NCBI GenBank assembly: GCA_023105745.1
Contig: JALGQZ010000009.1
Coordinates: 13,936,564-14,000,563 of the forward strand
Origin: Austropuccinia psidii
Taxonomy: Eukaryota > Basidiomycota > Pucciniomycetes > Pucciniales > Sphaerophragmiaceae
Reading direction: 5' to 3'
DNA length: 64,000 nucleotides
Position numbers and translations under genes: made by a program. The notes beneath the pieces were generated by a model. It searched no databases, had not been told where the DNA came from, and saw nothing but the letters and a program-made list of their open reading frames with translations. Each line of letters opens with the position of its first letter. Position 1 is the stretch's first letter. This document shows, piece by piece, positions 12,660 through 59,319 of this stretch.

Positions 12660-12662
12660 AGA
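12660..12662. other. Target site duplication AGA, left
   Basis: The bases AGA lie directly before the left TIR, and AGA follows the right TIR at 33621-33623. A 3-bp duplication is typical of CACTA elements. Confidence 0.75.
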
Positions 12663-12708
12663 CACCAGGGCGAATCTTGCGTCAATCGTCGGCAATTGAC
12701 TTCACGTC
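12663..12708 (+). repeat. CACTA left terminal inverted repeat
   Basis: It begins CACCAGGGCGAATCTTG and ends in GACTTCACGTC. It pairs with 33620-33575 at 41 of 46 positions; the five mismatches are at TIR positions 5, 16, 18, 32 and 44. Positions 20-39 contain an internal imperfect dyad, GTCAATCG-TCGG-CAATTGAC. Confidence 0.9.
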
Positions 12709-12739
12709 GCACCGCGGTCAGTATAAAATCTTGCTTCAG

Positions 12740-12840
12740 TCTCGTTAGTGTCACTTTATAGTCACTGGATTTAGTGGGTCACGTCACGTCAGCGTCAAGA
12801 CAACGTCAATCGTCACATGTGTCACATGAGAATGTCACTC
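12740..12840 (+). repeat. CGTCA subterminal repeats, left end
   Basis: At least five copies of CGTCA in one orientation, plus several TGTCAC variants, lie just inside the left TIR. Further CGTCA motifs occur just inside the right TIR (33534-33553) in the mirrored orientation. CACTA elements carry such subterminal motifs as binding sites for their transposition proteins. That role is inferred here. Confidence 0.5.
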
Positions 12841-13018
12841 AAAGCCCAAACCCGTTTCAACACTATTCGCAACGTTCGGGTAATTTCACCTAATAGCTTC
12901 TGCCTCCCCGACGCTTAGCATGCTTAGGCGCCCGCACCACCCTCCAGATGAGACTCTGACACTGCCTGCCCCCCCATCTCCGTCCTCACCACTTCTTACG
13001 CTTTCAGACCCCCACCCT

Positions 13019-13603
13019 TACCATCCTTACGCTTGTGTAGTGCCCTCCCGACATGCTCCCGACACTGGTTACAATCCTTACGCTCGCGCAGTGCCCTCCT
13101 GACATGCTCCCGACGCTGCTTACGATCATTATGCTCGCGCAGTGCCCTCCCGACATGCTCCCGACACTGCTTACGATCCTTACGCTCATGAAGTGCCCTC
13201 CCGCCATGCTCCCGACACTGCTCACCATCCTTACGCTCACAGAGTGCCCTCCCGACATACTCCCGACACTGCTTACAATCCTTACGCTCATGAAGTGCCC
13301 TCCCGACATGCTCCCGACACTGCTTACGATCCTTACGCTTGCGGAGTGCCCTCCCGACATACTCCCGACACTGCTCACCATCCTTACGCTCATGAAGTGC
13401 CCTCCCGACATGCTCCCGACACTGCTTACGATCCTTACGCTCGCGGAGTGCCCTCCCGACATACTCCCAACACTGCTCACCATCCTTACGCTCATGAAGT
13501 GCCCTCCCGACATGCTCCTGACACTGCTTACGATCCTTAGGCTTGCCTAGTAGGTACCCTCCCGACATGCCTCCGACGCCGCTTACCATCCTTACGCTTC
13601 CGT
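13019..13603. repeat. 51-bp minisatellite, left subterminal
   Basis: About eleven copies of a 51-bp unit are marked by GTGCCCTCCCGACATGCTCC, at 13040, 13091, 13142 and so on. The unit also holds ATCCTTACGCTC and is rich in CpG. Since 51 is divisible by three, long frames run through it in several phases on both strands; these are artefacts. It shares ATCCTTACGC and CTCCCGACA with the 40-bp minisatellite at 18.4-19.0 kb. Confidence 0.9.
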
Positions 13604-13615
13604 ACTACATCCATA

Positions 13616-13641
13616 GTGTACGGTGGCTTGTTGGCGTACAC
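13616..13641. repeat. 26-bp palindrome P1
   Basis: Left part GTGTACGGTGGC, centre TTG, right part TTGGCGTACAC. The outer seven bases pair perfectly. It is the most diverged member of a six-member set inside the CACTA element and lies between the minisatellite and the first gene. Confidence 0.6.
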
Positions 13642-14097
13642 AATGGACGCCATCGCCGAAATATGCTGAGTGGCCTTCTCTGCCAACAGGACCTCAGGGG
13701 AAATTGGTCAGTATATTCACAATGTTGTGGTTAGGGTTTAAATCATGAGACTCGCAAATTAAAACCTAATAAGTGGACTATTTAAGACAAGAATTGTGTC
13801 TCCTTTTTTGCCGACAAAATCATTTTATTTCATATCATTCAAATGGAACACTTTGCTTAGTCCTTACCTCATGAGCGTTCAATAGTTCAAAAGTTGACTT
13901 TAGTAGGTTTCTCACTAGTCAACTTTATTCAATGTCTCACAGGGAAGTGATTTCATTTGCATGATATGAAATAATTTGCAAAACATCGCCTCCTTCAATT
14001 TCCCGCCAAATCGCATGTTGCAAATGCGATTATTTTACTTCCACCTAGTTATCAATCAACTCGTCACCATCTATTTGCTTACTAAACTACCTCCGCG
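13642..14097. other. Upstream region of the first CACTA gene
   Basis: No gene is recognised. The repeated phrases TAGTAGGTTTCTCACTAGTCAACTT and AGTTGACTT at about 13870-13925 form a short interrupted dyad. The stretch is the likely promoter region for the gene starting at 14098. Confidence 0.35.
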
Positions 14098-16338
14098 ATG
14101 GCCCAAACCCTGGGAAATTCAACGGAATTTAATGAACGACCAACTTCAGCCCCAGAGAGTGGAAGTGAAATATCTGATATGGCCAGTAGTCGTGAATTAG
14201 GCATTGAAGCAGAGAGCCAGTCACATGAAGATAATCAAGATCCACCAGTTCTTCCAGAATGTGAGTATACATCCATCTTGAGTATTTCTAATCTCTCAAA
14301 ACCTGATATTGTGTCATAGCCTTTATTTCAGGTCAACCTCCAAGCTCTCAGAAACCGAATTTTAAAACTTATGAGAAGGAAAAGACTGTTGAACCTTGTG
14401 CACCGACAGAAGATGATGGGCAAGATGATGTAATTTTCAGTGGGGAGGTGGAAATTATATCCAAGGAACAATTTGTCTCCAACATTGCTCAAACAATCCC
14501 AAGGCTCGAGAAAATCCAAAATGATAGTAAAATTCCTGATTATGTGCGTCAAAAGATTGCTGAAGCCATGAGCCTGCTCAAAATGGATTTGAACCATAAG
14601 TCCATTACTAATTCAAAACAAAGTTGATAAAAATAGCTGCTTACAATATATGGGCAGGTGTGGAGGTGGGAGAATCTCTACCTGAAGGATCTCGAGTCGT
14701 AATTGGATTTCCAGGCAAAGGATTAGGAAAAAGACCAAATATACATGCGACCAAAAAAACCAACAAAAAACGCCGTACCTTTGAAGCCGCAAAGGATTCC
14801 CGGGATCAAGGTGATGAAATGATCAATGTTGAAGGGGACGATATTGATAATGAACCTCCGCATACTGAACCCCCCCCATACTCAATGAAACAATCCATGC
14901 TGAAGCTCCACATACTGAAAGCCCCCCGATACCCAATGAAACAATGCATGATGCAACCCCTCCCGCCTCTCCTCGGAATATTCAAGCCCCTCAAGAAAGG
15001 GAAACAATTAAACATGATACAATGGGACGAGATATGACTGATATAATTCCCGACGCTGAGCCCAAAGTGTCATCCGCTGCGAATTTTCAAGGAATATTTT
15101 TATCCCGCATGGAAGAGTTTGCAGGCATTTTGAATTATCATTCCAATATTTCTCAACAATCATGGAAAAGGGGGCTTGATAATATCAATAGGATTTACAA
15201 AAATAGATGGGACAATTTACCAACAAAGGATGCTCATACATTCCTGCCCATTGGTATTAAGGTGATCAGTAACCGAGATCTTAAAATGTCGGCTTGGCTG
15301 CAGGACCTTGAGATGGCAGGTGAGTTTTTTTGTATCTTTGTGCATGATACTTGATTATTGGCTGTTGACTGGTGATATAAATTGCAATATACAGGGTTAG
15401 ATTTTTTTAAGCCAACTGAAACAGAAGCGTTTTTTGATTACAACATTTGGAATCTCAAATTGATGAAGGAATCAGCTAAACCTCCCGATAATCTCCCCAA
15501 ATCTGAACACTCCTTCTTCAAAATGGTTCAGAGCCTTATTTACCCCGCGAATCCAGTTAAACATTTTTGGGCAAATGTTATGTTTGAATCCATTAGTTTA
15601 GTCTCATACGATGTGATTGCACCCAAACCATATGTTGCACCAACATCAAATTCGACCGATCCTCTTGGACTCGAACGGGGAGCAGTTGAATACCTTGCCT
15701 CCTGCTTGAGTAAATCGAAGCAACGTGCAACCCAACTCAGCCTTGAAGGTGGCGGGGCTGACAATGAGATATCCACAAAGCCGCACAAGAACCTGGAGGA
15801 TCTAATGGATACAGTTATCCATTTGATGATTGCGTACAACATGGTACGTGCACATACAAAGGTCGAAGTTAATGGCATCAAAGGCAAACTCACGAACTCA
15901 AAAAAAAATGAGGCCATCAAAGATCTTTTGGCGTGTCACAAGAATCTCGGAATAAATCAAATTTGCTATGGTATATTAGCGGCATTCTGTGCGGCGGGGG
16001 TTCGTGGTTTGATGGTATGCTCAGATGACTGGAGAACAAGCTCAGTTAAAGGGGCTTTATCACTAATTGACATTTCCGCAAAACTTTCAGAGGGTAAAAA
16101 TCTAGTGGAGCCAGTGTGGCTACGTACTAATAAGTATATATGTAATTTACTGAATAAAAGTTTCTTCTCATCAGAGTCTTTTAACCCCACTGTACCTCTT
16201 AGATTTGAATTTGCACGATGCTTAGTATTAGACTTTGGTGATGCCTGGGTGGCGAAACGCGGTCTTGGTTCAAGTGATGAGGTCACCTTGACGGTACCCA
16301 GGTCAGCTAAACTCACAACCAGGATTGACCCGTTTTAG
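14098..16338 (+). CDS. Unknown multi-exon CACTA-borne gene, frameshifted at a C8 tract
   Basis: Exon 1 is 14098-14260 (MAQTLGNSTEF..., acidic and serine-rich), followed by an intron 14261-14331 (GTGAGT...TTTCAG) and an exon from 14332 that stays open to a TGA at 14625-14627. I could not settle how this exon joins the next open stretch at about 14624-14880, which has a basic patch (KKTNKKRRTF) that may be a nuclear signal. At the run of eight C bases (14870-14877) the frame moves, and the new frame continues to 15319. Intron 15320-15394 (GTGAGT...ATACAG) then joins in frame to the last exon, 15395-16338. The C-terminal 315 residues look like a folded domain (HFWANVMFES, VRAHTKVEVNGIKGKL, ARCLVLDFGDAWVAKRG) that I do not recognise. 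The gene sits between the left minisatellite and the TET/JBP gene, on the same strand. Confidence 0.6.
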
Positions 16339-16915
16339 ATTAGCTTTGTACTAGATAGATTGTAATTTAATTTTGCAAAGTTATTTATGAATTTAATAAT
16401 CATGACTTCCTATCCTACTACTGCCCGGATGCCACAGTCTGAGTACCAATAGTAATTGTACGGGGGCATGCCTCCGTACATCATTGCAAAGACTCCGCCA
16501 AGACGCAAGCTGAGTCAGGCTTTGTGCCCGCGAGTAGCACACTCGGGGGCATTGCGGGAAGTCGCGTTTATCACTTCCCGCCAGCCCATAATAGGCAAAT
16601 TGTTACTGTGTCTTTCAAGAGGACTGGGATAACTAGGGATCCGCAGCAGGATGCATATTGCATTTGCGTGTGCTTGCAATATTCCAAATGGTTGGATTGG
16701 AAAGTGATTGCATGGGAACATCAATGTGTAAAATTGAATAATGCACTATCCACTGCAATTTTCAGGTTCAGGTATTTGAGATCGTGAAGTTGCCAAGGTC
16801 AGGCGTGAGCTTTCTTTTTAGCCGCAATTAAAAAAGATTCATCCACCGCAATCCAATTTAGGTGATATTAATAAATCAGTAATCATTTGGTTTCATTTCA
16901 TTTTCTGCTGCAAGC
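16339..16915. other. Intergenic region between the unknown gene and the TET/JBP gene
   Basis: No gene is seen. It contains palindrome P2 at 16457-16480 and is the probable promoter region of the TET/JBP gene. Confidence 0.4.
16457..16480. repeat. 26-bp palindrome set, member P2
   Basis: TGTACGGGGGCA followed by TGCCTCCGTACA; the arms pair at all but one position. It lies 120 bp downstream of the unknown gene and 440 bp upstream of the TET/JBP start. Confidence 0.75.
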
Positions 16916-18259
16916 ATGCCATTCACGAAAAAAGGAAAAGAGCGTAAAAGGGAACTCGCGAGAAAGCGTCGGGCTGAGGAAGGAAAGTGTGAGTTTCTCA
17001 CTTAATCTCAGTGTATATATATAGATATATATATATGCTTCCACATTTATGTGGCACCCTCATTGGGCCCCACGGAAGAACATTGGCTTTAGTCGGTTCA
17101 GATTGTGCCAATGTCCTGTGGGCTCTAAAGGGAAGTCAAAGGATGTGTGCCGAAGAAAGCTGCTTGGCAGTATCTGATATCTTTTGTGCTTCAACACATA
17201 GTGATCCCACAACCACTCGGGAATAGTAGCAGATCCCAAAAGACAAATGAGTGCAAAACGACCCGAATGAATAGGTTTTTTTCCTCCTCTCGCCCAACAG
17301 CACAAATATCAATGCCAGTATCAGCAAATATCACCCCAAGTGAAATTCGGAGGGTGGTGGATGTCAATCAGATCAAACGCATTCACTTTGGCCGTGTGGC
17401 AATTTTCTCTTCAACCGGATTACTCATTGCCCTTGTTGAATTCCGACCATTCACAACAATGAGTGAAGTCGAGGTCAATCAATGGGATGAATTATCACAA
17501 TTCTTATTTCGCGAAAAGAGGTTCACTGACCCTATTGCAACAAATGGAGCATTACTGGAGGGATTTATGTTTGCGATTGGGTGGCGCAAATGCACCACGA
17601 AGAATGAACAATTTGGTCTGTATGGTAGTGCTGGCAAAATTGAAAATGCAAAAGATGAATGGCGGGACCGAGGTGCCAATCTTAGCTCGGTGGGTTGCAT
17701 TCTAGGTCAATCCTTACGATATGTTGGGGATAATTTATTTCAGAAGATTCAAAATTGCTACAACTCATTGGGGGTTCCGTCTTTTGATCAAGTCAACTAT
17801 GAAGGCAATAATCCCGCAAATCAGGGTGCATGTGAGTTTGCTTCGGCACTCACTTTCACCATGAATGGATTCAAAAACGCACCTCATGTTGATAAGGATG
17901 CATCGCTGTATGCTTCGGGATGGTGGTTTCAAGCTGATAAGCGGACCGGCCAAATTCAAAGAGATGCGTCAAAGCGGTGTACAGGGGGAAAATTGATTTT
18001 CCCAAATGAGCATTTTTGGATTGATCTATCCGCATGTCATGGGCTCATTCAGGTAGTGTGGGCCAGTAGTACATTTGTTCATTATACTGATCCAGCTCAG
18101 GACAACAAAAGCACGACACTAGTGGGTATGTCCGCACAATGCTCAAGGAGGTTGGCAAAAACAATGCGGCAAACAAGCCATGGCTATTATGAGATTGCCG
18201 AGAGAGTGGGCTATCAAATCAGGGATGGTAATACAATCTCATGCCGATTCAAAGAGTGA
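16916..18259 (+). CDS. CACTA-borne TET/JBP-type 2OG-Fe(II) dioxygenase (copy 3)
   Basis: Exon 1 (16916-16988) encodes a strongly basic start, MPFTKKGKERKRELARKRR. The intron 16989-17201 has GTGAGT and ATAG ends and includes a TA microsatellite. Exon 2 runs 17202-18259, and the joined frame gives 376 residues. Likely iron ligands are H252 and D254 in APHVDKD and H318 in FVHYTDP; the 66-residue spacing equals that in copy 2. GGKLIFPNEHFWIDLSACHG precedes the second histidine as in the other copies. The position that aligns with R327 of copy 2 reads Leu331 (TTLVGMSAQ), so binding of 2-oxoglutarate may be altered. The family oxidises methylated bases in DNA. It lies in the same direction as the preceding unknown gene, and I infer it serves the transposon by acting on methylated element DNA. 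Confidence 0.75.
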
Positions 18260-18387
18260 GGCAGTCGGAATAGCAGCGTGATTGGTAGATGATGGTGGGG
18301 TAAGGCAGAGGACAATATACACCAGGATTGGATGGATTCGAGTGCGGGAGATAGGGTGTCTCACAGGAAAAAGGGGTGAAGTGGATT

Positions 18388-18413
18388 ATGTACGGAGGCA
18401 TGCCATCGTACAT
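18388..18413. repeat. 26-bp palindrome set, member P3
   Basis: ATGTACGGAGGCA followed by TGCCATCGTACAT. Eleven of 13 pairs match. It lies 128 bp after the TET/JBP stop codon. Confidence 0.75.
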
Positions 18414-18445
18414 ATGCCAGGTTTGTTGCTCTTGTCCAGGATCCC

Positions 18446-19000
18446 AACGCTTCACACGCGAATCCTTATGCTTGTGCAGGTGCCGACAATGCTAAAAGTT
18501 TCTTACGCCTATGCGGGGTGCCGAGGCTTCACACGCCAATCCTTACGCCTGGGCAGGTTCCCAACAACTCACACGCCAATCCTTACACCTGTGCAGGTTC
18601 CCAACAGCTCACACACCAATCCTTACGCCTGTGCAGACTCCCGAAAGCTCACACGCCGATGCTTACGCCTGTGCAGGCTCCCGACAGCTCACACGCCAAT
18701 CCTTAGGCTTGTGAAGGTTGCCAACAATGCTGACAATTTGTTATGCCTGTGCAGGCTCCCGAAAATTCACACGCCAATCCTTACGCCTGTGCAGCCTCCC
18801 GACAGCTCACACGCGAATCCTTAGGCTTGTGAAGGATGCTAACAATGCTGACAATTTCTTACGCCTGTGCAGGCTCCCGACAATTCACACGCCAATCCTT
18901 TCACCTGTGCAGGCGCCCGACAGCTCACACGCCAATCCTTACGCCTTTTCAGGCTCCCGACAGCTCACACGCCAATTGTTACGCTTGTGAAGGTTCCCGA
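18446..19000. repeat. 40-bp minisatellite
   Basis: About thirteen copies of a 40-bp unit contain CACACGCCAATCCTTACGCC and TGTGCAGGCTCCCGACAG. Some copies are replaced by a longer variant with AACAATGCTGACAATTTCTTA (18720 and 18840). Open frames across it are repeat artefacts. It separates the convergent TET/JBP and Zn2Cys6 genes. Confidence 0.88.
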
Positions 19001-19425
19001 CAATTTAAACAATTCAATACATGACTAAGATTAATAGCGTGTGACCATAGGAACGGCAATTTCTCATGAATCTGGAGTGGATTGCTCACATGCCGGAACC
19101 TCCCGCTTTTTTACAGTTAAGATTTGATATGGCTCTAAACAATGGAGGAAGAAAATATAGGAGGCAGGAATGGTGACTATTGGCGCATTTTTGGCAAAAG
19201 ATTTTCTCACATACAAAAATACTAACTCAAACTTTTGGTGGGGCACTTACGAAAATTATTCTCACCCAATAGTAAATATGAATCATTGAGGAATTATAAT
19301 AAATTCACGTGAACAAAAAACGTAAGAGAAATTGAAAATATCTTTCATTGAATACAAATAATTTATCTAAAGGAGTGTATTACAAAAGGTAAAAAGAGGA
19401 AAGAATACGATTTTTTTTGTGGATT
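19001..19425. other. Gene-free stretch downstream of the Zn2Cys6 gene
   Basis: Moderately AT-rich. I see no coding region. It is likely the 3' region of the minus-strand gene ending at 19426. Confidence 0.35.
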
Positions 19426-20794
19426 TTATTTTTCTAAGAATTTGGAGACTATCCCGGTGATGTCCTCCATTGGATAAGCCTCTATCGCCTCGCCAAGGAG
19501 GGAGTTTAGTTCCTCCCGGAATTCCCGGTGCATCTCATTTCGATGAGTTGCATCCACGAAAGGAATCATGTGGAGCAACCGACGATGCTCCAACAAGATT
19601 CGGTTGATCGATTCGTGGACGATGGCTCGAGGAATCATTAGTATCGGGCGCAGGTTGGTGAATTCCTGGCGAGCGTCATCGTAGGAATGAGAGGAGCTTG
19701 GCACCGGGGGGGAGGAGGCTGTTGGGTTCTCGGCGTCAATGGGAGGGATATCCGGGGTAGGAGTGGTGGGAGGGGGAACAGGAGGGGAAGGTGGGGGAGT
19801 GGGTGAAGAAGAAGGTGGAGGGGGAGGGGGAGGAGGGGAACCGACTGGCGTATCGTCGATGATGATAATGGAGCGGGGAGTTGCGGGACGAGCTGGAGAT
19901 GGTCGAAGGAGGGGTGAGGAAAAGTTTAGTTGAGTTAAAAAGGTGAAATAGGGACTTACCAAAAGGTTCCTCCGTTGATTGCGTAGGAGCCACCTCAGGT
20001 TGAGGCTCACGAGTCGCAATGTCCTCAGGTGGTTCGGAGGATGGACTCGGGCCAGGAATAGGTGGCTCATTGTTCTGGGAGGCTTCTACAAAAGGAGGAA
20101 GAGTCAGTTAACTTGATGCGAAAGTGAAAATGAGAAAAGAGAAAGTTGGCTGCTTACTGCGGAATAAGTCCTCAGACCATCGGGTGCCACTCGGGCCTGG
20201 AGTGGGTTGCCGCGGGGTTTGCTCGCGAGGCAAAGTAGGAACGGGAGAGTCTTGTCGGGGGGGATTAGGGGGGTTTGGTTCTATGAGTAATGGAAAAAAG
20301 TGAGTATTGTTGCGTGAAGATAAATGAGAGAAGGAGGAGAAAGAAAACTTACTTTGGCGTTTGAATCCCATCGGTGACAAGACATGGTGACGATCAGCCC
20401 AAGCTCTAATGTCCTCTTTCCATCGCCATCCTTCATTGGCCGGATAATCACTTCGCTCAGGTCGAGGAGTGAAGTGACCATCGGATGTTGGCCTAGGAGG
20501 GGGGGTGGACAAATCGATGCTTGAGGGGACTGGGCTAATTGTCCTGAATCGTTCCCGCTGGCCTGTTTGGGGTCCCGGGGTCCACTCACGCTCGGAAATC
20601 GTTTCATCATCATCGGCCACAAAGGAGTCCTGGCAAGGGCGTCTTGGGCGGGAACTCCTCTGGCCGCGGGGTCGGAAGGGGCGGACGACGAATGAACATT
20701 TCTTGTGTGCTTGTCGGCAAGCATCACAAGCATCGGTCGTCGTCGAGGAACGAATGCAGGGGATACCCCGCTTGGTGCATAATGTGCACGACAT
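19426..20794 (-). CDS. Zn2Cys6 binuclear-cluster protein, intact (385 aa)
   Basis: Four exons on the minus strand (20794-20353, 20280-20158, 20085-19960, 19892-19426) join by GTAAGT, GTAAGC and GTAAGT donors and clean AG acceptors into one open frame of 385 residues. The N-terminus has cysteines 3, 6, 13, 23, 26 and 33, spaced C-x2-C-x6-C-x9-C-x2-C-x6-C, which is the fungal Zn(II)2Cys6 pattern for DNA binding. An arginine-rich stretch (RPRGQRSSRPRRP) follows, then a long proline-rich region and a C-terminal helical segment (INRILLEHRRLLHMIPF to SKFLEK). It may bind CpG-rich sites in the element, either as a regulator or as the DNA-binding partner of the transposase. That role is inference. 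It is convergent with the TET/JBP gene. Confidence 0.78.
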
Positions 20795-21374
20795 CTAAAA
20801 ACAAAACAAAACAGGTTAGTAACTGAATAGAAAGTAAGCAATCAAGAAAGAAAAGGAGGACATACGATGATTTATAATTTTAAAACGGAATTCAAATTAA
20901 AAAGACTCCAGTAGGAGGTTTTTAAAAGTCTAGAAGAGAGTCGTGAAGAAAGAAAATGATTAATATTGGACCATAATGTTGACAAAAGTTCAATTGGAGA
21001 AAACGTACAAAGTAGATAGAAGTGGGGTTCTGAAATTATCAGCAGGAAAAACAAAAAGCGAGCAGGAAGGGGAGTGGGGTTAGTCGAGTGCAAAAGAAAA
21101 GACTGGAAAGGCAGGAAGACGAGGGGGAATACGCACAAGAAGGACAAACGCGGGTGACGTTGAACGAAGTGGAGCGGGTGAGAGAGAAAGTGAAGTGCGC
21201 GTCGTGTGAAGATGGTCTTTTATACCAAGGTGAAGCTGAGACGATCGCAGCAGTTTCAGCACCCGCAAAAGTCTCAGCTTCAAGGCGTGTGGGCAAAATT
21301 GAAGCTGAGTCTCAGCGAATGCTGCAACTGAGAAGTGAAATGCTCGCGTGAGGCAGAAGAACAATGGGGGTCTG
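20795..21374. other. Upstream region of the Zn2Cys6 gene
   Basis: No gene is recognised; overlapping frames occur on both strands. Its right part begins the cluster of GCTGAG motifs. It probably contains the promoter of the minus-strand gene. Confidence 0.35.
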
Positions 21375-22370
21375 GCTGAGTATTGCAATTTATTGAATTG
21401 TCAAGCTGAGTCAAATCCCCTTTGTTTCCTTAAATAGCCACCCGATCACCCAAGAGGGTGGTCGTGAGGCCCTTGTTGAATGTGCATTCAACGTGCAATG
21501 CACAAGTGACCCATGCAGAAATGCACCCAGTGCATTTGGTCACAAGTGACAGCGGCAAGATCACCGGCTGTATGGCCTGGTGATAGTCTTTGAACAAAGG
21601 GGGGGCTGTAAGACAAGTGAATACAGTGTGAGCTTGCCTCGACCCATTGCTCAGGTTTGCTTTCGGGTCATAATTGAAATGCGCAGTGGCTGAACATTTT
21701 AATTGCACAGTAATTGAACAATTGATATAACAATATCAAATGCACCGCTGAGTATTGCAATTTATTGAATTGTCAAGCTGAGTCAAATCCCGTTTCTTTC
21801 CTTAAATAGCCACCCGATCACCTGGGAGGGTGGTCGTGAGGCCCTTGTTGAATGTCCATTGTGGGTGCAATGCACAAGTGCCCCATGCAGAAATGCACCG
21901 GGTGCATTTGGTCACAAGTGACCGCGGCGAGATTACCGGCCGTATGGCCTGGTAATAGTATGTGAACAAAGGGGGGGGCTGTAAGACAAGTGAATACAGC
22001 GTAATCTTGGCTCGACCCATTGCTCAGGTTTGCTTTCGGGTCATAATTGAAATGCTCAGTGGCTGAACATTTTAATTGCACAGTTGTTGAACTATTGATA
22101 TAACAATATCAAATGCACGATGCTGAGCAATTGCTAGGTCATTTTTGTAAGCACACAATCTGAGCATTTGGCACAGCATCGGATGACATTTCAGCCAGGT
22201 GCAGCATTTCACACGCTTTGGTGAAGTGCTCCAAATTGAGCCTTCCAGTGAGCTATTGCAGAATTAGTTCATTCCATGGCTTTACTGAGCACTTTCACAC
22301 GGTGCTTTTGACCATGACATGCTCAGCTTGCGTGTGCAAATCGGGTGAAACGCAATGCTGAGCATGTGGC
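21230..22370. promoter_or_regulatory. Cluster of GCTGAG/CTCAGC motifs
   Basis: About fifteen copies of GCTGAG, its complement or one-base variants lie within 1.1 kb, for example at 21235, 21302, 21374, 21404, 21747, 21776, 22111 and 22360. Chance would give fewer than one exact copy. The cluster is in the divergent spacer between the Zn2Cys6 and SNF2 genes, where a shared control region is expected. Function is unknown. Confidence 0.4.
21375..22118. repeat. Tandem duplication of a 372-bp block
   Basis: Two adjacent copies start with GCTGAGTATTGCAATTTATT at 21375 and 21747. They are very similar throughout, including AAGGGGGG(G)GCTGTAAGACAA and the closing TATAACAATATCAAATGCAC. Each copy carries its own GCTGAG motifs. 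Open frames in both copies are shadows of each other and not evidence for a gene. Confidence 0.85.
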
Positions 22371-22461
22371 ACATGAGCTACGTAAATGCAAACGATCGGA
22401 AGGTGCATGCACATTTGCTGTATGCATGCAGGCTCAAGTAGTATTACACCTTCCTGATCTG

Positions 22462-22508
22462 TACAGTCGACACTGTAGTACGCAGTACACCTTTGTAAAT
22501 GTACTGCG
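22462..22508. repeat. Two adjacent hairpins
   Basis: TACAGT-CGAC-ACTGTA at 22462-22477 is followed by CGCAGTACA and TGTACTGCG, a nine-base perfect stem, at 22481-22508. They differ from the 26-bp palindromes in sequence and spacing. Confidence 0.5.
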
Positions 22509-23313: not shown

Positions 23314-23339
23314 ATGTTCGGTGGCACGCCACCGAACAT
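23314..23339. repeat. 26-bp palindrome set, member P4
   Basis: ATGTTCGGTGGC, centre AC, then GCCACCGAACAT. The arms of twelve bases pair perfectly. It is the most perfect member of the set. Confidence 0.8.
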
Positions 23340-23453
23340 ATCTAACCCGCCTACACACAAGCATCCCCACAGTGAGATTGCCCTTTGAAACCGCCAAAAT
23401 TGCCCAGTAGGTCCCTGTGCGACAATTAACCTGAGGAAGATATATATGCATCC

Positions 23454-23479
23454 ATGTTCGCTGTCACACCAGCGAACAT
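23454..23479. repeat. 26-bp palindrome set, member P5
   Basis: ATGTTCGCTG, centre TCACAC, then CAGCGAACAT; ten-base perfect arms, extended one base by a C/G pair outside. It lies 140 bp from P4 in the SNF2 upstream region. Confidence 0.78.
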
Positions 23480-23845
23480 GACTGCATGCCTCTGATATGC
23501 CCTCCACAATAAGTTGCTACAACCCACCCAATTTCGGATGTGCTAATGTCAACCTTGTTCCACCAAAGTTTTCGTAAATCGCTGCAGATCCAGCAGTCAT
23601 AATGGTGCACCCACATTTTGGCCACCTTGCCTTGATATATGCCCCAAATCGGATATGAAAATTATGTGCCCAAGAGGCCCACCTCCATCAAGACCATTCA
23701 CGTAACCACAGGCCATCCCCCTTTTGGCCTGTTGCTGCCACTCATATAAGCTCCCCACCTGCGCTTATTGCGCTTCATTCCCTTTGGCTAACCCTTCCCG
23801 ATCATATAATTTGCAACTGTCCCCAAATAATTTAAAATAGCCATC

Positions 23846-26278
23846 ATGTCAACGCCTTCACAACCACTTTGCATCGGGATGATTAATATTCGTATTCAAA
23901 TAAATAGTGATATAACCTTAAAGCCTGAGAATTCCCACTTAGGTTCTTGGATTATCCTATGGCACAATCAACAAAACATATTCGTATATCTCCCCAATCA
24001 CCAGCATGCTATTGGCTCTCTCCCGGGAACCCTTTCCCAAACGTTGATACCATTCCTTGGGGCACCAAAAACGTTCATGCACTGTGGTCCTGGTGGGGCA
24101 TGGATTGAAAATTGCCAATCCAATCCTACTCAAATATTATTCGTTGAGGGAGTATTTATGACTGATGCCAATGATCCCTCCTCATCTCAGAAACCCAATC
24201 TAGCATTGATGTTCTTCACATGGTATCCAAACATTCTATTCATAATGGAAAGCTTTCGAACACAAGATTTCAAGCTTAAAATGCCCAAAGAATATGACTG
24301 TACTACTCATTGTCAATGTCAACTCTTTACTCCGACATTTCCCGCTTCAAACTCGATGCCTGCTTCATATCCTGCTGTTTCATCATTGATTTCCAAGCAA
24401 AAACTGATACAATTACCCAGTGGATCAGACCTCCCCATGATAACCCCGCCCCATGCCATTATTCAAACCCCCCTCTTCCCTCATCAAAAGACCGGACTAG
24501 CTTTCCTCTGGGATCGAGAAATCCCCAATGGCCAATCAGCCCGTAACCTTTGGGCCACCTCACCCCCAGGATCCACTTTCAATGCCAGGCACATCATTAC
24601 AAACAAGGTCATTAGCTCATTTGAATCCCTTTCGACCAATACCCCTCTTGGAGGACTGCTCGCGGATGATATGGGATTAGGTAAAACCATTCAGGCCATT
24701 GCTCTAATTGGTACCTCCAAGGAGTGGATGATTGCAAACCCCCATCGCTCCACGCCCACCATGATCATCTGCCCCCCTCGCTTAATTACCAACTGGCAAT
24801 CAGAAATATCCAAGCATGCTCAGGCTGGAGCACTGCATGCCAAAATCTACCATGGTCCCACTCGTCACTCATTATCCCAAGCCGACATTTTAAAATATGA
24901 TATCATCATCACTTCTTACAATACTATCACCCAAGAATTTAAGCAAACCAATCCCTCTACATCATTCATTTTTCAAATCAATTGGCATCGTATAATCTTG
25001 GATGAAGCACAGTGAGTGGCTGAGCTTAAATGATTCAAATTACCTTTTATATCCAATAACCCTTTCCCCCTCTTATAGCTATATTCGCTCTCAATACACT
25101 GCCACTCACCGTGCCATTAATAGCCTCCTTTCATCCCGTCGAATATGTTTAACAGGCACACCTATTCACAACACCATTTATGACCTTTTGGGCATAATAT
25201 CATTCATCACTCAACCCCAGAGCGCCGATCAAGATAACTGGTCACCATTCATCCTGAGTAGTCTTTCAAAAGGTTGCAATGATATTTTGCATTTGGCATT
25301 GCGGCATTTAAGTTTGCGCCGCACCAAAACCACACATCTCGAATCCCTCCCCACTATTAGCCATCATTATGAGCTGCTCCCACTCAACCCGACCATGCAG
25401 CAAGAATATTCCATATTATATGAAGAATTCCTATCATCCAAAAGCAAAGGACCAGGAGAATCTTTCAGAAATATTAATAAGCTGCGAATATGTTGTAACC
25501 ATCACATCATGCTTAACACAATTGCGGAGGCGGAGTTGGAAGACCCCGAGGGCAGGAGCACTCAGGATAACTCCCCAAGAATCACATGAACTATTGTGGA
25601 TGTGGAAACATGCATGATGAGTAGTAAAATTGCACACCTCCTACAAAGCTTAATGAAGAACAAACAAACAAGGTGTGGTCCGACGAAATCGGTGGTTTAT
25701 ACCCAATGGACCCAATTTCTAGATTTGTGCGTTAATTCTTATATGCATCCATTACCAATTGACTCCATCTGACTTTTTTATATTGTAGAATTGGTATTGC
25801 TCTTGCCCATCACTCTATCCTTTCAGCACGAATTGATGGAACAATTACACCACGAGCGCAGGACAAGGCGCTTGAGAGTTTCTTCAATAATCCTGAATGT
25901 GAAGTACTCATTGCATCCATTGCCGCGGCTGGAACTGGCCTCAATATAACTTGTGCTAATATAGTCTATTTAATGGTGAGGGGCCCCCCAAAATTCTCCC
26001 CTGATTTTCGGACCTTGACATCCACATTTCCAGGAGCCCAATTGGAACCCAGCCATTGAGGCTCAGGCTGTTGATCGTCTACATCGTATTGGCCAACAAC
26101 GACCTGTACAGGTCATCCACTATATCACTCCTCATTCAGTTGAGGTCAACATGCGGAAGGTACCTTTCAAGCTCATCTTTCACTTGATTGTATTACTATT
26201 CTGAAATCCTTCCTTATGGGAATGCCATATTCCAATCACCAATAGGTCCAAGAAAAGAAACAATCATTAACTGCGTGA
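23846..26278 (+). CDS. SNF2-family ATPase, five exons, one in-frame TGA
   Basis: Exons 23846-25011, 25079-25726, 25789-25975, 26034-26159 and 26246-26278 join into a 719-residue frame whose only lesion is TGA at 25587-25589. Helicase motifs appear in order. Motif I is DDMGLGKT (K280). Motif II is completed as DEAH (386-389) by splicing across the first intron. Motif III is LTGTPIHN. Then come LRRTK, KSVVYTQWTQFLDLIGIAL, AAGTGLNIT (V) and DRLHRIGQQRP (VI). SNF2 ATPases move along DNA and remodel nucleosomes. Domain order resembles the Rad5/Rad16 branch, but I see no RING finger. The stop falls between the two ATPase lobes and could be a CGA to TGA change, which would inactivate this copy. It is divergent from the Zn2Cys6 gene and convergent with the next unknown gene. 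Confidence 0.82.
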
Positions 26279-26584
26279 GCCTTACTGATATTATATAATT
26301 TGTGATTGACAAAGTTGATAACTCCTGTTGACTCTGGCACAGGTCCACAATTATGAACACCATGAGCTGGATCGAACTTCTTCAATATTTCCTCAATGAA
26401 AATGAGCAATAGAGTATTATTGCAAGGGAGACGGTGATACATTTCAATTCATATTGTCTATATTCTAACATATTTAGCAAGTTGTTGCATCCTTAAGAGA
26501 TAATAATCAGATTTTATTACACCTGCACAAATAATTCACAAAATTTTAATTTGTCACAGTGCTATACCGTGACAAATTACTAAG
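26279..26584. other. Spacer between convergent SNF2 and minus-strand gene
   Basis: AT-rich 3' regions of two convergent genes. Nothing else is seen. Confidence 0.4.
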
Positions 26585-28646
26585 TTATTGCAGAGCATCA
26601 CCATTAGGCCTAATAACTGGCATGTCAAGTATCTTGAGGGCGCTAGTCTGCATCTTACTACAGCCTTTGAGCCAATCTTGATCAAATACCTGAAATGATA
26701 GGCCTTCCGGAATATCACCATCATCTGTCGATCGTAATTCTGGCAATCTATCAATAGTTTTTTTACCCTTTTTTTTAATCCGATTACAAAACTCTATGTC
26801 TCTATCCATTTTCAATACCAAATCATTAAATAACTGGGAGCGCCAGCGTAATCCCACTTTGCGGTAAACTTGACGGCCATTTTCCAGTATTTCCTCAGTA
26901 TCTGAGCATACTCGAGGGTCATTGAATTGTGATGCTAGGATGGGAAATTTAGCCGTATCACACCATTCACGACGGCGCTCACAGGTCTGCACATAATCAA
27001 GTAGATCATCATCAGACTTGGTCCACAATGAAGAAGAGATACAGTAACTAACTCTTTGACGAATCTTCGCGAGCTTTTGATTCTCCTTCTTTTTAACCAA
27101 ATACTCCGCATCCTTTTGAATAGACTTCCATTCTCTTTTCAAATAAGTGAAATATCGCTCCATTAAAGCCGCCACGACCCCATAGTTGTTATGATCCTTG
27201 TTCCAACAGTAGGGATGATACTCAGTGCTGACAAGTGCGAGACGGAATGTACGGTAAAACACCATAGACATCAGCTCGTTAAACGGATGTTGCCATGAGC
27301 TCTCCCAGTCCCAAGTGAATCGCTTTAGTCCTAGCTTGTGGAGCTCATTTTCGCAGTAGCTTTGGAAACCCTGAGACTGAACCTGTGTTGATGGCTCATT
27401 GAAAACATCCTCGGGGACATAACCGAGATGACCAGCCACTTGAATTGCAATTTCACGCTCTTCTGTGCTGGGTGGTGCTGGTAGTGAGGAAAAATCCTTA
27501 TCCCTAACTTTGAGTAGGAACAGGCAATGTGCGTGTACTGCTGATCTCATTCCATGGACATTCTCTGGAAGTTCTGCCTTCAGCCATTTTTGTTGCTCCT
27601 TCTGGCTTGCACGTTTCGCCACATTGTGAGCTTTGCGGGCCTGGTTCCTTTGCTGTCTGACCTCGGATTGTTCAAGCATACTCTGGGCAAGGCCCAGCTG
27701 AGGATGGGTGAACTCACTATTTGATTGAGTGCCTTGCTCATGCGCGGTGAAATTGTCCCTCGTTGGTTCATCATTTCTTTCACTTTGAGTCGGAGACATG
27801 TTCTCATCCTCATCATCCACCATTCTTTCTCTTGATGTACTGGCATGACCCGTTCTTGGTTTGGAGGCATATGGATGATGACGTCCAGTGACTTTCTCTT
27901 TATGGACCAGAGGTGAAGACGCATAAAGTTCATCCCCTGCCATGCAAATCATCAGTTAACACATCAAAACATTAATGAAGACTGGTGATACTCACGATCT
28001 TCAATTGGCTCCTGAGATCGGACTGACTTGCTTTTAGGTGCCATATCTAACCCATGAAACAAACATATCAAATTGTGAATAAGTTTCTACTCCAAAATTC
28101 AAATGACTTACTTTGATGAAGCGTCAATACTGGATTTCCCTCCGACAGACCGCTCCAAGAGACATTTTCCAAAGGTCTTTTTCATCGCCCCCCATCCACG
28201 CGCCTTTCATCACCCACATGAACCTGAGATCCTGATGGAATATTGAGGGTTGGCTGTTTACTTTGGCCAAAGGGATCCTGGGATGCGACTGGATTCCGAC
28301 CGGGATTAAGGAGGAACTCACGTGGAAATTTTGATTGGGGATTAGCATGTGATGAGATTTGAGGTGTGCCTTCTGGCCCCTGAGACACATGAATTTGTGT
28401 ATTAGTGGGATTCGGGGGAATTGGAGTGACGGAAATATTTGGGATCAACCAAGTGCTTGAAGTTGGAGCCTTTGGATTGCCCACATCAATGTTAAGACCT
28501 GATACATTCATTGAGGATGCGATAGGGGTTGTGAGAGGAATGTTGGGACTAAATGGTGACTGTGTTTGAACATATTCTATGCTAGATTCACTATTTGAGT
28601 CATGAACAGAACCTGAACGGGATTTATGTGACTTGAAAGATGACAT
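26585..28646 (-). CDS. Unknown three-exon CACTA-borne gene with one in-frame TGA
   Basis: Minus-strand exons 28646-28112, 28046-27996 and 27936-26585 are joined by GTAAGT and GTGAGT donors and keep a single frame of 645 codons before the final stop. The one interruption is TGA at 28182-28184, next to a G-rich run. The N-terminal third is low-complexity, rich in Ser, Pro and Asn. The middle is basic and probably coiled (QRNQARKAHNVAKRASQKEQQKW). The last 300 residues look folded, with conserved-looking HPFNELMSMVFYRTFRLAL and HPYCWNKDHNNYG, but I recognise no family. It faces the transposase head to head across 960 bp, so the two may share control, as second genes of CACTA elements often accompany the transposase. 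Function is not known. Confidence 0.65.
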
Positions 28647-29606
28647 AAGGGCCGAAAAAGTACACTAATATTTTTAACTAGATAAAACACCTCAGTATTA
28701 TGATAAAATAGAGTGATATGAGATGAAATCTTTTCAAATTTAGAATAGAGAAATTCTATGAATAGTTGGAACTAAGTGTTGTGTGGAAGTCGGATAAGAC
28801 TCTTTTGAGGAGAATCCTCCCTGCCTCCTCTTGAGCTCCTCTGCTTTTGTCGGAAACCACCCTGCAAGGCCTACCAGAATATAATGTGATATTTCCTTGA
28901 TCTGAAAGGGGACCCATCATCCATAAGTAATCATATTTGGTAACATTTCCGCCTCCCTATTGTCACATTTTGTGAATTATCCAAACTGCCAATATATGCA
29001 TTGAAATTCCACAACATTGTACATCTGTAAAGGGGTATATTCATGAAGGATTTACCCACAAAAGAGACATCACCTTTTCACGAAAGGCAAGACAATCCAA
29101 ATCACATTCCAACTGATTCAAAGCCCACCGCACTCAAACCAAATACCAAGACTTTAGCTGCACTCCACCCCCTTATGTAATAGAGTTATATAGTTATGTC
29201 TGTAATAAGGTTTAAACCATGTACGATGGCGTGCCAGCGTACATGGGTTAAATGTTAATCCCCTCAATTCAATGGTAACACTTCACTAATGGAACCCCCT
29301 CAATGGTAAAACCCGCACTATCACAATGTGTAAATAAACTAGAATATGTATGAGCATTGAGCAGCATGGCATTTTACCCAATTAAACGCCTAACCAATTC
29401 CGCCATCCAGATGAGACATGTTAAACTTTATCCACTGCAGCTCATGCTCCATTACAAATGGGATAAAATCCTCAGCTGGCTCAAATCATCTCCCCCTTCA
29501 TAAATAATCACTGAATTTTATTTCCAATTAATAACACTCCTAAACACTTTCACATCAACCATAGATATTTATACACAAACCAACCGTACTCCCAATTCCT
29601 GCAACA
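28647..29606. promoter_or_regulatory. Divergent intergenic region of unknown gene and transposase
   Basis: There is no coding region. It carries palindrome P6 at 29219-29244 and is the expected promoter region for both the minus-strand gene and the transposase. No clear TATA pair could be assigned. Confidence 0.4.
29219..29244. repeat. 26-bp palindrome set, member P6
   Basis: ATGTACGATGGC, centre GT, then GCCAGCGTACAT. Arms pair except at one position, and two more outside bases pair (CC/GG). It lies 363 bp before the transposase ATG. Confidence 0.78.
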
Positions 29607-32600
29607 ATGACAACCCGGCCCTATTCCTCAATGCGTATATGCATGTGTCAACACTGCTCAACTCAAACACACTCTTCCCCTGAGGGTGATAAGCAAGGAG
29701 TTGCCTTCACACCTTTCCAATATAAACAGCACATTAAAAAGCTCAAATCAACCCTTGCACCCAAATCTCTTCCAAACATCCCTACTTCTGCATCAGGATC
29801 TGGGTGCCCACAAATTCTATTGGATCAAATCTTCCCAGCTGATTATTCACGTTTGACCCAAAGCACTTTCCCAACTGCAGCGGGTCTCAATTCATCTGCA
29901 CAGAAACCATATAGTGGCAGTCAAACCCTTCCCCCACAAGACCTAGGAATGATAATATCTGCCATTCTATCATTAAGGTATAATTTACCCCGCAGGGCTT
30001 CACGCATACTCAACCCCGCCCTGAACCTGCTGATCAAGTCCAGTATCTCAAGCTCAGCTGGTCCCCCCGCTCCTGCATTCCATATACCTCAAGATCTGAG
30101 TACCATATTTGAACATCTCCAATTGGAGCCAGTGATTCAAAACTATATATGTTGTCCTCAATGTTTCTCTCTTAATGGCCTTACTGAATCAGTAACAACT
30201 GACCAACCCCACTGTCAACGCCATAATGACCCAAATGATCATGATCCCCCTTGCACACAATCATTAGGCAAATTCATCTATTCATCTGAACCCCACACCC
30301 AAAACACAACCAACATGAAGCAAAAATTTATACCAACAAAACATTTCATTTATCAACCATTCAAAAATTGGCTTGCCAGATTTCTCCAGCGGGCTGGAAT
30401 TATGGACATTCTGCATCAACATCAACAATCCCAAACTCCCGAAGATTCCCCAAAACGTGACGTCTGGGATGGATTGGTCTGGAGACGCTTCACTGGCACT
30501 AGAAATATCCATGACCCCCCATTCATGTCCATTCCTGGTGCATTGGCCTTCTCCATATATGTGGACTGGTTTAATGCACATGGAAAGTCAACCCGGTTGG
30601 CTAGCATTGGACCTATCATGCTTATTTGTCTTAATCTCCCCCCAAGTGAAAGATTGAAGCCTGAGAATGTCTATGTTGCAGGAATCATCCCTGGTCCGAA
30701 GGAGCCAACTGCGCTTCAATTGAATTATCTATTAATGCCACTCATCAACGAGCTCAAAGAGCTATGGCAGGGTTACCATTTTGCACCCACCTCAACAGGT
30801 CCATCAGGATCCTTTATCCGTGTTGCCATCCTCACAGCCATTGCGGATGTGGTTGCCATGCGCAAGCTTACTGGATTTATTTCCCATTCAGGAAACCACT
30901 TTTGTAATTTTTGCACCATTCACAAAGCTCAAATTGAAGAAATTGGTCCTCAATTTCACTACACGCACTCATACCAAAGTCATAAATCAACCATTGCCAA
31001 ATGGCTTCGGGCAACCCCACAACAAAGACAAGCAATTTTCTCTGAGTATGGAGTGCAATATTCAATTTTGGAAGACCTTCTGTATTGGGATGCAACCAGA
31101 ATGGTTAATCTTGACATAATGCATAATTTAATACTTGGAATTTTGAAGGATCATGCAACTTTCAAATTGTGCATTCCAGAGGCAAAATCAAAAATTTACT
31201 TCAGGTCCCGCAGGAAATCCAATGACACCAACAGTTCAGACTCAGATTCCAAGACCTCCAACAGCTCTCTTGATAAAATCACATTGAGAGAGGCCCTCTC
31301 CCTGAGAAGAGACGCAGCAAAAATAATAAATGAGCCACTCCCCACTACTTCCACCCGAAAAAACTACTTCCCAATGCCCACCCCTAACACAGAACATCCA
31401 TCTAGTGGTTCTGCGGAGATTCCTTCATTTGATGCCGATTACATCCCCACTTCTGAAATACCCTCTGAATTGGATATCACTGCACTGAGTGATCACCAGA
31501 TCAAGGGTGAGGCTCTTGAGCATCTCCGACAAATCATATCTGAGACCATAATTCCCTCATCATGGACAAGAGTTCCCCGCAAAATGGGTTCCCCCTCTCA
31601 TGGTAGCTTAAAAGCCGCTGAATGGGCTCTCTTATATAAGGTCTATATTCCATTTCTAATGCTCAGTCAACAGATGTCATTAGATGCACACCAATCTGCC
31701 AACACTCAAAGAAAAATGGGTCAGTCAGAAGAACTTGCAAATGAACTAGCCAAGAATACATTCCATTTGATTAGTGCTATCAACATTGCCACAAGCTGGA
31801 CTGTTTCAATAGATGATGCGACTGCATTTGCTGAACATTGGAAAAAATTCCGCCTTTCCAATCAACACCTGTTCCCAAAACAGAAAAGTAAACCAAATCA
31901 TCATTTTGCTGATCATATTCCCGAACTCTTCCACCGTTGGGGCCCAGCACAAGCCTCAGCCACATGGGGTTATGAGCGCTTGATTGGAGTATTTGCAAAG
32001 ATGCCAACAAATAACAAGATATGTACGTCAATTAATAAGATCAATATATTCACATTGATGAAACACCTGAACTGAATAAGACTAACTTTTTGCAACTCTG
32101 AATAGATGATATAGATAAAACCTTACTTCAACATATCTGTCGATGTTCCAACCTTTCCGTTCTCCTGAAATCCCCATCTGTGCCATGTGAAATAAAAAAT
32201 CTTTTCGAATCACAGCCACCTGCCGTGTTCAATCACCATAAATATAACAAGCCATCCCGCCATGACCAACAAAATTATGCTTGCCTGGTTGAGTACTTAC
32301 AGAATTTTCATTCCACAAGGGAAGTAGTTGATTGGATCAGCTTAGACACTACCATGCAATCCACAAGTCCTCCCACTTCAAGGATTGTCTCACCTTGGTA
32401 TTTTCCAGTCTCAAACATTAATATTGGGAACAATATATTTTCAACTGAATCCAAAAATATCAGCAACAGTGTGATATGTTTTCTGAGGGGCAACTCACGA
32501 CAATTTGGTATTATTGATAGCATTTTCAAAGTCTCTGAGCCATCTAGCATACTGAATAATAACTTTCTGATTTTAAAAACTTTGAAGATTGATGTGAATT

Positions 32601-32767
32601 TCCTACCAGATTGGCCGTATCTCAATATTTATAAAGCTGTTGGTTTTGATGATGGACACTTGATTATATCAGAAGAAGAAATAGAAGGTAACTGTGGATT
32701 GTATGATAACAAAGCTCTGTCATGTGGACTGCTTGTAATGATAAAGCCGTTATTTCATGATATTTAG
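29607..32767 (+). CDS. CACTA (Tnp2-like) transposase, intact
   Basis: Exon 1 is 29607-32022 and exon 2 is 32106-32767; the intron 32023-32105 has GTACGT and ATAG ends. The joined frame is 1,025 residues with no stop. An N-terminal zinc-binding pattern (CMCQHC) is followed by DVWDGLVWRRF and YVDWFNAHGKSTR. Then comes the hallmark Tnp2 block GIIPGPKEPTALQLNYLLMP with INELKELWQGY, then KLTGFISHSGNHFCNFC, NLDIMHNLILGILKDH and, near the end, HIPELFHRWGP with YERLIGVF. These blocks match the Transposase_21 family, whose DDE-type catalysis cuts at the CACTA ends. Acidic residues in the DWF, DIMHN and ERLIG blocks are candidate catalytic positions. It lies nearest the right TIR and is the enzyme expected to have moved the element. 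Confidence 0.87.
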
Positions 32768-33030
32768 TCTACAAAAATGCAAATCTCTCAGATTCATTAG
32801 CAATTTTGCTAGTGAAATAATTGCCTCAAAATTTAGTGACAGAGACATGCCATTGTGACAAGCAAAGCCCATTATTTCACATTGCCACAAAGAACTTACT
32901 ATTTTGACATTGGGTACAGTGTGAATAAGCCAAGTCCAATGATCAAATGACCCACACACTCACCTTTCATAGCATCCAAAATTTCTAACTGCGCCATCAT
33001 CATGTTGGAAGCGGAATCGGCTTTTGCGTA
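32768..33030. other. Transposase 3' region
   Basis: No gene is recognised. It leads into the right subterminal minisatellite. Confidence 0.4.
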
Positions 33031-33320
33031 CCCACACCCGCATGTGCACCCGCACGCGCCAATGCACACGCCCACGCACCCGCACACGCCAATGCACACG
33101 CCCACCCACCCGCACACGCCAATGCACACGCAAACCCACCCGCACACGCCAATGCACACGCCCACCCACCCGCACACGCCAATGCACGCGCAAACCCACC
33201 CGCACACGCCAATGCACACGCCCACCCACCCGCACCCGCACACGCCAATGCACACGCAAACCCACCCGCACACGCCAATGCACACGCAAACGCGCCCGCA
33301 CACGCCAATGCACACGCACA
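33031..33320. repeat. 30-bp minisatellite, right subterminal
   Basis: About nine copies of a 30-bp unit begin AATGCACACG and end CACCCGCACACGCC. Units with CCCACCCACC alternate with units with CAAACCCACC, giving a 60-bp higher-order repeat. His/Thr/Pro and Cys/Val/Gly frames across it are artefacts. It mirrors the position of the left minisatellite. Confidence 0.9.
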
Positions 33321-33533
33321 CTTCATGGATGACCTGGTGAAGTCAAACCCCCCGCCTACATCAAAACTGGCTGAAGGACATCTTTGATGTGTGTGTGTGC
33401 AAACAGGCGGGTCTGGTGTAATTTTTACCAATCATCGGATGGTTGTGGGATGATCAGGTGGTGAGGAATCTGAGTTGAAGGCACAGGGGAACCAATATTA
33501 TTGGATGTCACAGGATTTGGTGTAAGACCAGAG

Positions 33534-33553
33534 TGTGACGTGTGCTTGACGTG
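33534..33553 (-). repeat. CGTCA subterminal motifs, right end
   Basis: TGACGTG and TTGACGTGAG lie just inside the right TIR. On the minus strand they read CACGTCA, matching the left-end motifs in mirrored order. Confidence 0.45.
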
Positions 33554-33574
33554 AGCTCAACTTTTATCCTGCTT

Positions 33575-33620
33575 GATGTGAAGTCAATCGCCGACGATTG
33601 ACACGAGATTCGCCCCGGTG
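33575..33620 (-). repeat. CACTA right terminal inverted repeat
   Basis: Read on the minus strand from 33620 it starts CACCGGGGCGAATCTCG. It contains the perfect dyad GTCAATCG-TCGG-CGATTGAC. It differs from the left TIR at five positions, every one a CpG transition. Confidence 0.9.
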
Positions 33621-33623
33621 AGA
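33621..33623. other. Target site duplication AGA, right
   Basis: It matches AGA at 12660-12662. Confidence 0.75.
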
Positions 33624-33688
33624 GGAACACCCCTGTGGCCAACGTACTCATTTCAAACCATCAATAAACCTAATTGAAATCTGAGTTT

Positions 33689-52912: not shown

Positions 52913-52914
52913 TT

Positions 52915-53350: not shown

Positions 53351-53383
53351 AAATACTATTTTAAGCCTTTTTTAACCATAATT

Positions 53384-59308: not shown

Positions 59309-59319
59309 TATTCTTTTTT

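Follow-up and report, generated by a model that had tools for sequence, protein, structure and literature searches.

A 21-kb CACTA transposon of the rust fungus Austropuccinia psidii moves TET-like and SNF2 genes together with its transposase

Introduction

Transposons with chromatin enzymes among their genes provide natural experiments on the arms race against DNA methylation. EnSpm families that contain a TET gene and have CAC..GTG ends and 3-bp target-site duplications (TSDs) have been described in Puccinia striiformis, and the same report mentions relatives of these EnSpm families in further rusts, Austropuccinia psidii among them (Kojima, December 2025, PMC12730594). Young transposons of A. 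psidii are reported to have the highest ratios of 5-methylcytosine at CpG sites (5mCpG) in that genome (PMC12774611). Here we describe a CACTA/EnSpm element that occupies positions 12663-33620 (20,958 bp, ~21 kb) of a 64,000-nt stretch of A. psidii DNA, C9:13936564-14000563, which was analysed as a whole and is called the window below. From left to right the element contains gene A (+), a TET-like gene (+), a zinc-cluster-like gene (-), a SNF2 gene (+), gene F (-) and a Tnp2-like transposase gene (Tnp, +). An earlier reading of the window from its letters alone (the sequence-only reading) had inferred that the oxygenase travels inside a CACTA element and had named KDZ transposons as the best-known setting of such genes. 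The novelty of this reading has to be narrowed, as TET genes in CACTA elements of rusts, and not just in KDZ elements, are already in print (PMC12730594), but the SNF2 gene is not mentioned in the main text of that report.

Results

Ends of the element

The terminal inverted repeats (TIRs) are 46 bp long, begin with CACC at 12663 and end with GGTG at 33620, and pair in inverted orientation at 41 of 46 positions. When the left 46-mer was scanned across the window the runner-up inverted match reached 25/46; this within-window scan is the whole of the chance test, and the copies elsewhere in the genome are the stronger evidence. The CAC/GTG termini, the 3-bp TSD and the Tnp2-type transposase identify the element as CACTA/EnSpm, and its TSD lacks the 7- or 8-bp length given for KDZ elements (PMC12730594). 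We considered whether all five TIR mismatches reflect decay after insertion and rejected this, as positions 5, 16 and 18 also differ between the two ends of a second copy on contig C10. In that comparison only the mismatches at positions 32 and 44 are confined to the window copy.

Copies elsewhere in the genome

The element was searched for in its own genome (1,015,390,075 bases in 84 contigs). For the left end, 40 of 3743 first-look candidates were scored, all at 97-100%; 30 of these begin at query position 23-24, where 24 corresponds to window position 12663, and the remaining 10, the window's own included, begin up to 23 bases further out. Eight left-end loci (again with the window's own) were fetched. 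All eight begin with CACC; apart from two weak matches, the adjoining 1 kb of flank is unrelated among them. For the right end, 40 of 2560 candidates were scored, and all 39 apart from the window's own end at query position 270-277 (270 being window position 33620).

Twelve copies, including that of the window, were then compared. The C10 copy was tested with 601-bp probes for A, TET, zinc cluster, SNF2, F and Tnp, and the other young copies for some of these genes; a failed probe may indicate either deletion or displacement (Table 1). TET was found in 12/12 copies, SNF2 in 11/12 and Tnp at its expected place in 10/12; F was present in all six copies tested for it, and A and the zinc cluster in all three. 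Perfect 3-bp TSDs flank five of the six copies in which both ends were read (AGA, ACA, AAC, AGA and ATA). The copies were chosen from high-scoring ends, so that short or cargo-free derivatives would escape detection. The exception is the C1 copy, which was met by blind sampling and is decayed: its TET gene is shortened and shifted, stops occur in A, SNF2, F, Tnp and the zinc-cluster ORF (open reading frame), and a long terminal repeat (LTR) retrotransposon has inserted at the equivalent of window position 28.65 kb.

Insertion is also visible from paralogous empty sites. The flanks of the C14 copy align to uninterrupted copies of a retroelement (L018 at 6582-6240 and 6242-6166; L003 at 2835-2493 and 2495-2419), those of the C10 copy align to L018 at 7445-7345 and 7347-7247, and in all three alignments the two flanks overlap by exactly 3 bp. 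No clean empty-site pair was found for the flanks of the C12 and C3 copies. We also note that the C14 and C10 copies independently hit one retroelement family at different points.

Taken together, the shared ends, the TSDs, the collinear cargo and the paralogous empty sites demonstrate that the cargo travels with the transposase, and we regard it as practically certain that the whole six-gene element moves as one unit. The copies thus bear out the sequence-only reading in so far as it placed TET, SNF2, zinc-cluster-like and two unassigned genes within a mobile CACTA element: multiple full-length copies agree in their genes and ends and have 3-bp TSDs, C10 being positive for all six probes. Cargo genes that differ between copies, or TIRs that bracket the transposase alone, were not seen among the examined copies with high-scoring ends.

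Gene content and the state of the genes

The TET-like ORF, which is open in the window copy, belongs to the PF20515 family by its profile match (2.2e-46, 159 bits against a cut-off of 27). PHVDKD and TFVHYTD, read by eye, are candidates for the HxD...H iron-binding triad, with HxD in the consensus of 35 sequences. The spliced SNF2 model contains both ATPase lobes (PF00176, 1.5e-53; Helicase_C PF00271, 1.5e-15). Neither gene A nor gene F has a Pfam match over the cut-off, with a sub-threshold match of A to CDC24 at 19.1 versus 21.3 bits. The sequence-only reading had called the zinc-cluster-like gene Zn2Cys6, a label that did not hold at the profile level, since the ORF scores below the cut-off for PF00172 (12.1 versus 21 bits). 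What is left is the cysteine spacing by itself, which we take to agree with the Zn2Cys6 consensus. The transposase matches PF02992 (1.4e-15, 57.6 bits against a cut-off of 28.6) and its exon at 29607-32022 is open; CNFC, HHFADH and YERLIG in this ORF are candidates for the C(2)C, H(3-4)H and D, D, E motifs described in PMC12730594.

The window copy of SNF2 has an in-frame stop at 25587-25589, between the two lobes. This stop is missing at that place from all nine other young copies tested, and the four annotated SNF2 relatives that were compared all read through it, while the decayed C1 copy is also stopped in the matching stretch. An intron at 25534-25625 that would rescue the frame was rejected because relatives and other copies are uninterrupted there. 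The window copy is recent, yet its SNF2 gene is already broken, and if SNF2 is needed it must be supplied by other copies. The description of the element as a complete CACTA transposon has to be qualified for SNF2.

Selection and CpG mutation

No gap or frameshift was found in 32 coding probes from young copies. To assess constraint, synonymous changes were compared with a neutral model that has the same mutation classes, leaving out C1 and ignoring shared ancestry. Synonymous changes were in excess in TET (22 observed versus 15.9 expected, P 0.036), in gene F (10 versus 3.8, P 0.0015) and in the pool of TET, SNF2, F and Tnp (52 versus 36.2, P 0.0005).

In 3594 bases compared between the window and C10 copies there are 37 differences, of which 22 are CpG transitions, with 6.7% of bases in CpG. 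Between the window and C1 copies 301 of 1480 substitutions are CpG transitions, the window retaining the CpG in 232 of the 301. The excess of CpG transitions indicates that the element family has been methylated in the germ line despite its own TET gene, which agrees with the 5mCpG ratios reported for young A. psidii transposons (PMC12774611), and the 22/37 share makes methylation a real opponent of the element.

A palindrome shared by intergenic regions of the element

The 24-bp palindrome TGTACGNNGGCATGCCNNCGTACA occurs at five sites in the window at ≤3 mismatches, all of them within the element and outside modelled genes, and at none in the window's other 43,042 bases. No sites were obtained in 100 shuffles, and 19 sampled stretches (190,000 bases) contained none at ≤3 mismatches and one at 4; the pattern was built from three of its own sites, which biases these counts in its favour. 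The C1 copy retains four of the five sites at ≤4 mismatches, and the site upstream of A is present in all seven other fetched left-end loci. CGG-N10-CCG lies within two of the five sites and resembles targets of zinc-cluster proteins. These features suggest that an element-encoded DNA-binding protein reads the sites, making the palindrome a candidate operator. A search for a nested element around TET returned a single notable inverted pair that is not AT-rich (16457/18385, 25/28), which consists of two palindrome sites and was rejected.

Relatives of the encoded proteins

The TET protein is 97% identical to a protein of A. psidii MF-1, and the best 120 of 237 relatives are all from A. psidii. 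The gene models of these 120 include 17 that take in element sequence upstream of TET, 6 that take in the downstream minisatellite, one with part of gene A and one with the start of the transposase. Model P0018 (O181_024241) fuses a transposase start to TET in reversed order, which hints at a rearranged or tandem copy. Among the best 120 of 4884 SNF2 relatives, nine are close (70-81%) and all from A. psidii, and the next is an ascomycete protein at 33%. The transposase in turn has relatives in other rusts (47% in Phakopsora pachyrhizi, 41% in Puccinia graminis). This distribution suggests that the element acquired SNF2 within the Austropuccinia lineage, database absence being a weak guide.

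Surroundings of the element

The GC content of the element is 44.8% and its CpG observed/expected ratio 0.63, compared with 27.7% and 0.30 for the left flank and 27.3% and 0.26 for 33624-37000. The step at the ends is not sharp because the adjoining 0.7-1.2 kb on each side (11.9-12.66 and 33.62-34.87 kb) are also near 40% GC. These two flanking stretches contain no long ORF, and insertion into a host gene was rejected. In twenty 10-kb stretches of contig C1, one of which carries an element copy, the median CpG ratio of 1-kb bins was 0.09 (197 bins), and 2% of bins reached at least the element median.

Another repeat is present in two ~90% identical copies at 4058-7569 and 37016-40777. TET-like ORFs only distantly related to the element's TET follow these repeats (9685-10749 and 42023-42511), so that a second TET-bearing element family probably flanks the CACTA element on both sides. 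A fourth TET-like ORF fragment in the window lies at 350-871 (-). Further to the right, 20-bp tandem repeats of 2% GC fill ~6.3 kb (42760-49045), and 49531-63327 is a retroelement region that has ORFs for reverse transcriptase and integrase as well as repeated segments of up to 99.8% identity.

Table 1. Features of the CACTA element in the window and copies of the element in the A. psidii genome
Feature	Position	Strand	Basis or remarks
TSD AGA, left	12660..12662		read from window; other copies have their own 3-bp TSDs
Left TIR, CACC...	12663..12708	+	inverted-match scan, left-end genome search, fetched loci
Minisatellite, left-end side	13000..13610		approximate coordinates
Palindrome site 1	13617..13640		3 mismatches; 458 bp upstream of gene A
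Gene A, function unassigned	14098..16338	+	ORF/spliced model; several exons, model uncertain
Palindrome site 2	16457..16480		0 mismatches; 787 bp upstream of TET ATG
TET-like 2-oxoglutarate-Fe(II) (2OG-Fe(II)) oxygenase ORF	17129..18259	+	ATG 17267 set by comparison with relatives
Minisatellite 3' of TET	18282..19020
Palindrome site 3	18389..18412		0 mismatches; downstream of TET
Zinc-cluster-like gene	19426..20794	-	exons uncertain; N-terminal spacing C-x2-C-x6-C-x9-C-x2-C-x6-C
Palindrome site 4	23315..23338		3 mismatches; 499 bp upstream of SNF2 ORF
SNF2 ATPase gene	23831..26412	+	spliced model, several exons; premature stop in window copy
Gene F, function unassigned	26585..28044	-	long single ORF
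ORF G	28182..28664	-	may not be a gene
Palindrome site 5	29220..29243		1 mismatch; 364 bp upstream of transposase ATG
Tnp2-like transposase	29607..32858	+	ORF 29607-32022 plus short 3' exons
Minisatellite, right-end side	32960..33350
Right TIR, ...GGTG	33575..33620	-	inverted-match scan, right-end genome search
TSD AGA, right	33621..33623		read from window
Copy, C9 (window)	12663-33620	+	AGA TSD; SNF2 with stop
Copy, C10	55163402-55184359	-	20,958 bp, as window; ACA both sides; 6/6 probes collinear, 98.3-99.5%
Copy, C14	15506943-15527373	+	TET, SNF2, F, Tnp 97.3-98.8%; AGA both sides
Copy, C12	45248211-45269288	+	TET, SNF2, F, Tnp 96.1-99.2%; AAC
Copy, C3	68693196	+	TET, SNF2, Tnp 98.8-99.3%; ATA
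Copies, C7, C5, C6, C15	C7:10048214, C5:31308949, C6:61609444, C15:29804794	+	TET, SNF2, Tnp 98.5-99.3%
Copy, C13	33471113	-	TET, SNF2, F 99.0-99.5%; Tnp probe unmatched
Copy, C12 (second)	31844756	-	TET 99.3%; SNF2 and Tnp probes unmatched
Copy, C1	73995410-74025581		six genes, same order, ~86-94%; ends 77-79%; no TSD (ttt, ggg)

Discussion

The observations as a whole are probably best explained by a multi-gene CACTA family with a constant anti-silencing cargo. The Tnp2-like transposase would act on the CACC...GGTG ends and insert the entire 21-kb unit with a 3-bp TSD, TET, SNF2, the zinc-cluster-like gene, A and F being its constant cargo. We incline, with less assurance, to the view that this cargo has an anti-silencing function, in keeping with the proposal of the sequence-only reading that the package may reset the chromatin of the element. 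The oxygenase would most likely act on the element's own DNA to counter its CpG methylation, and SNF2 would most likely open the element's nucleosomes, with the result that the element could be expressed and mobile in a genome that methylates young transposons. A DNA-binding protein of the element may recognise the palindromes that precede A, TET, SNF2 and the transposase, the zinc-cluster-like protein being the obvious candidate, and could in this way either link the genes in a single circuit or direct the enzymes to the element. We are doubtful about the fullest version of this scheme, an autonomous transposon that brings a counter-silencing regulon of its own, in which TET and SNF2 are joined by a zinc-cluster protein that reads a shared palindrome. 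If true, the protein and its site would steer the enzymes exclusively to family copies and would help explain the spread of the family in a heavily methylated gigabase genome.

Several results weigh against an anti-silencing cargo or against parts of the scheme. The predicted TET structure (predicted local distance difference test, pLDDT, 32) was too poor for a fold search. Stops interrupt SNF2 in the window and C12 copies and Tnp in the C7 and C15 copies, and the synonymous excess is not significant for SNF2 (12 versus 10.2, P 0.31) or Tnp (8 versus 6.3, P 0.27). Judging from the CpG transitions, TET confers no lasting immunity to methylation on the family. As three of the five sites served to define the palindrome pattern, only those at 13617 and 23315 are independent finds, and the choice of the zinc-cluster-like protein as its binder is a guess. 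Lastly, in the MF-1 annotation, inspected by eye, none of the 9 SNF2 tags and none of the 17 A. psidii transposase tags adjoins a TET tag (best 120 of 237 relatives), a comparison weakened by short contigs.

Some of these results are what one would cite in favor of the cargo genes being captured passengers that a large CACTA element can accommodate and that affect neither transposition nor silencing: SNF2 and Tnp are without significant constraint in the probed parts, SNF2 is broken in the window copy, and the family has CpG mutations although it carries TET. We nonetheless consider passengers unlikely, as gene order is constant in the tested copies, the coding probes of young copies are free of frameshifts, TET and F show a synonymous excess, and unrelated transposons are reported to have captured TET repeatedly (PMC12730594).

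It is also conceivable that the same unit works by other chemistry, with the oxygenase modifying another base or producing a protective mark and SNF2 aiding repair or strand handling in the course of transposition instead of opening chromatin. The best match of the SNF2 model in the PDB is the DNA repair protein RAD5 (2.3e-55), and further activities of the PU-type enzymes cannot be excluded according to PMC12730594. However, the likeness to RAD5 is confined to the ATPase, the profile search having reported neither a RING nor a HIRAN domain in the model, and the CpG methylation of young transposons offers an obvious target for the oxygenase, so that we rate this alternative as improbable. Least credible, and very improbable in our judgment, is a composite in which smaller nested elements contain TET, SNF2 or other genes that simply travel along: TET genes are inferred to pass between transposon superfamilies (PMC12730594) and motifs at 16457 and 18389 bracket TET, but the motif is palindromic and recurs at five positions, most of them upstream of other genes, and hence does not mark the ends of a nested element, and young copies at unlinked sites have the same content in the same relative place, which makes it by now a fixed part.

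The anti-silencing interpretation is open to study with existing material. Nearly identical copies of the family, in some cases with damaged cargo, are present at unlinked sites, and 5mCpG data for the host are published (PMC12774611). An effect of TET or SNF2 on the methylation or expression of the copies, in cis or in trans, can thus be addressed from existing data.

Among described systems, the TET-bearing EnSpm families of rusts (PMC12730594) are closest, sharing with the present element the CAC..GTG ends, the 3-bp TSD, an EnSpm transposase similar to Plavaka and an internal TET/JBP gene, and the A. psidii EnSpm entry of that report may be the present family. In contrast to the element described here, the main text of the report has no SNF2 gene, zinc cluster or remodelling. 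Searches of one open-access literature library brought up no DNA transposon that combines TET with SNF2, though the supplement of PMC12730594 or Repbase may hold one. KDZ elements (Kyakuja, Dileera, Zisupton) likewise carry TET/JBP genes in basidiomycetes but have a different transposase and TSDs given as 7 or 8 bp (PMC12730594) rather than 3 bp. The plant VANDAL/VANC system, as described in PMC10398659, provides an analogy only: it too has transposon-encoded counter-silencing with motif repeats as possible targets, but VANC is neither a TET nor a SNF2 protein and VANDAL belongs to another transposon superfamily than CACTA. Finally, Rad5/HLTF-type SNF2 ATPases share both ATPase lobes with the SNF2 protein of the element, which is distinguished by being transposon-borne.

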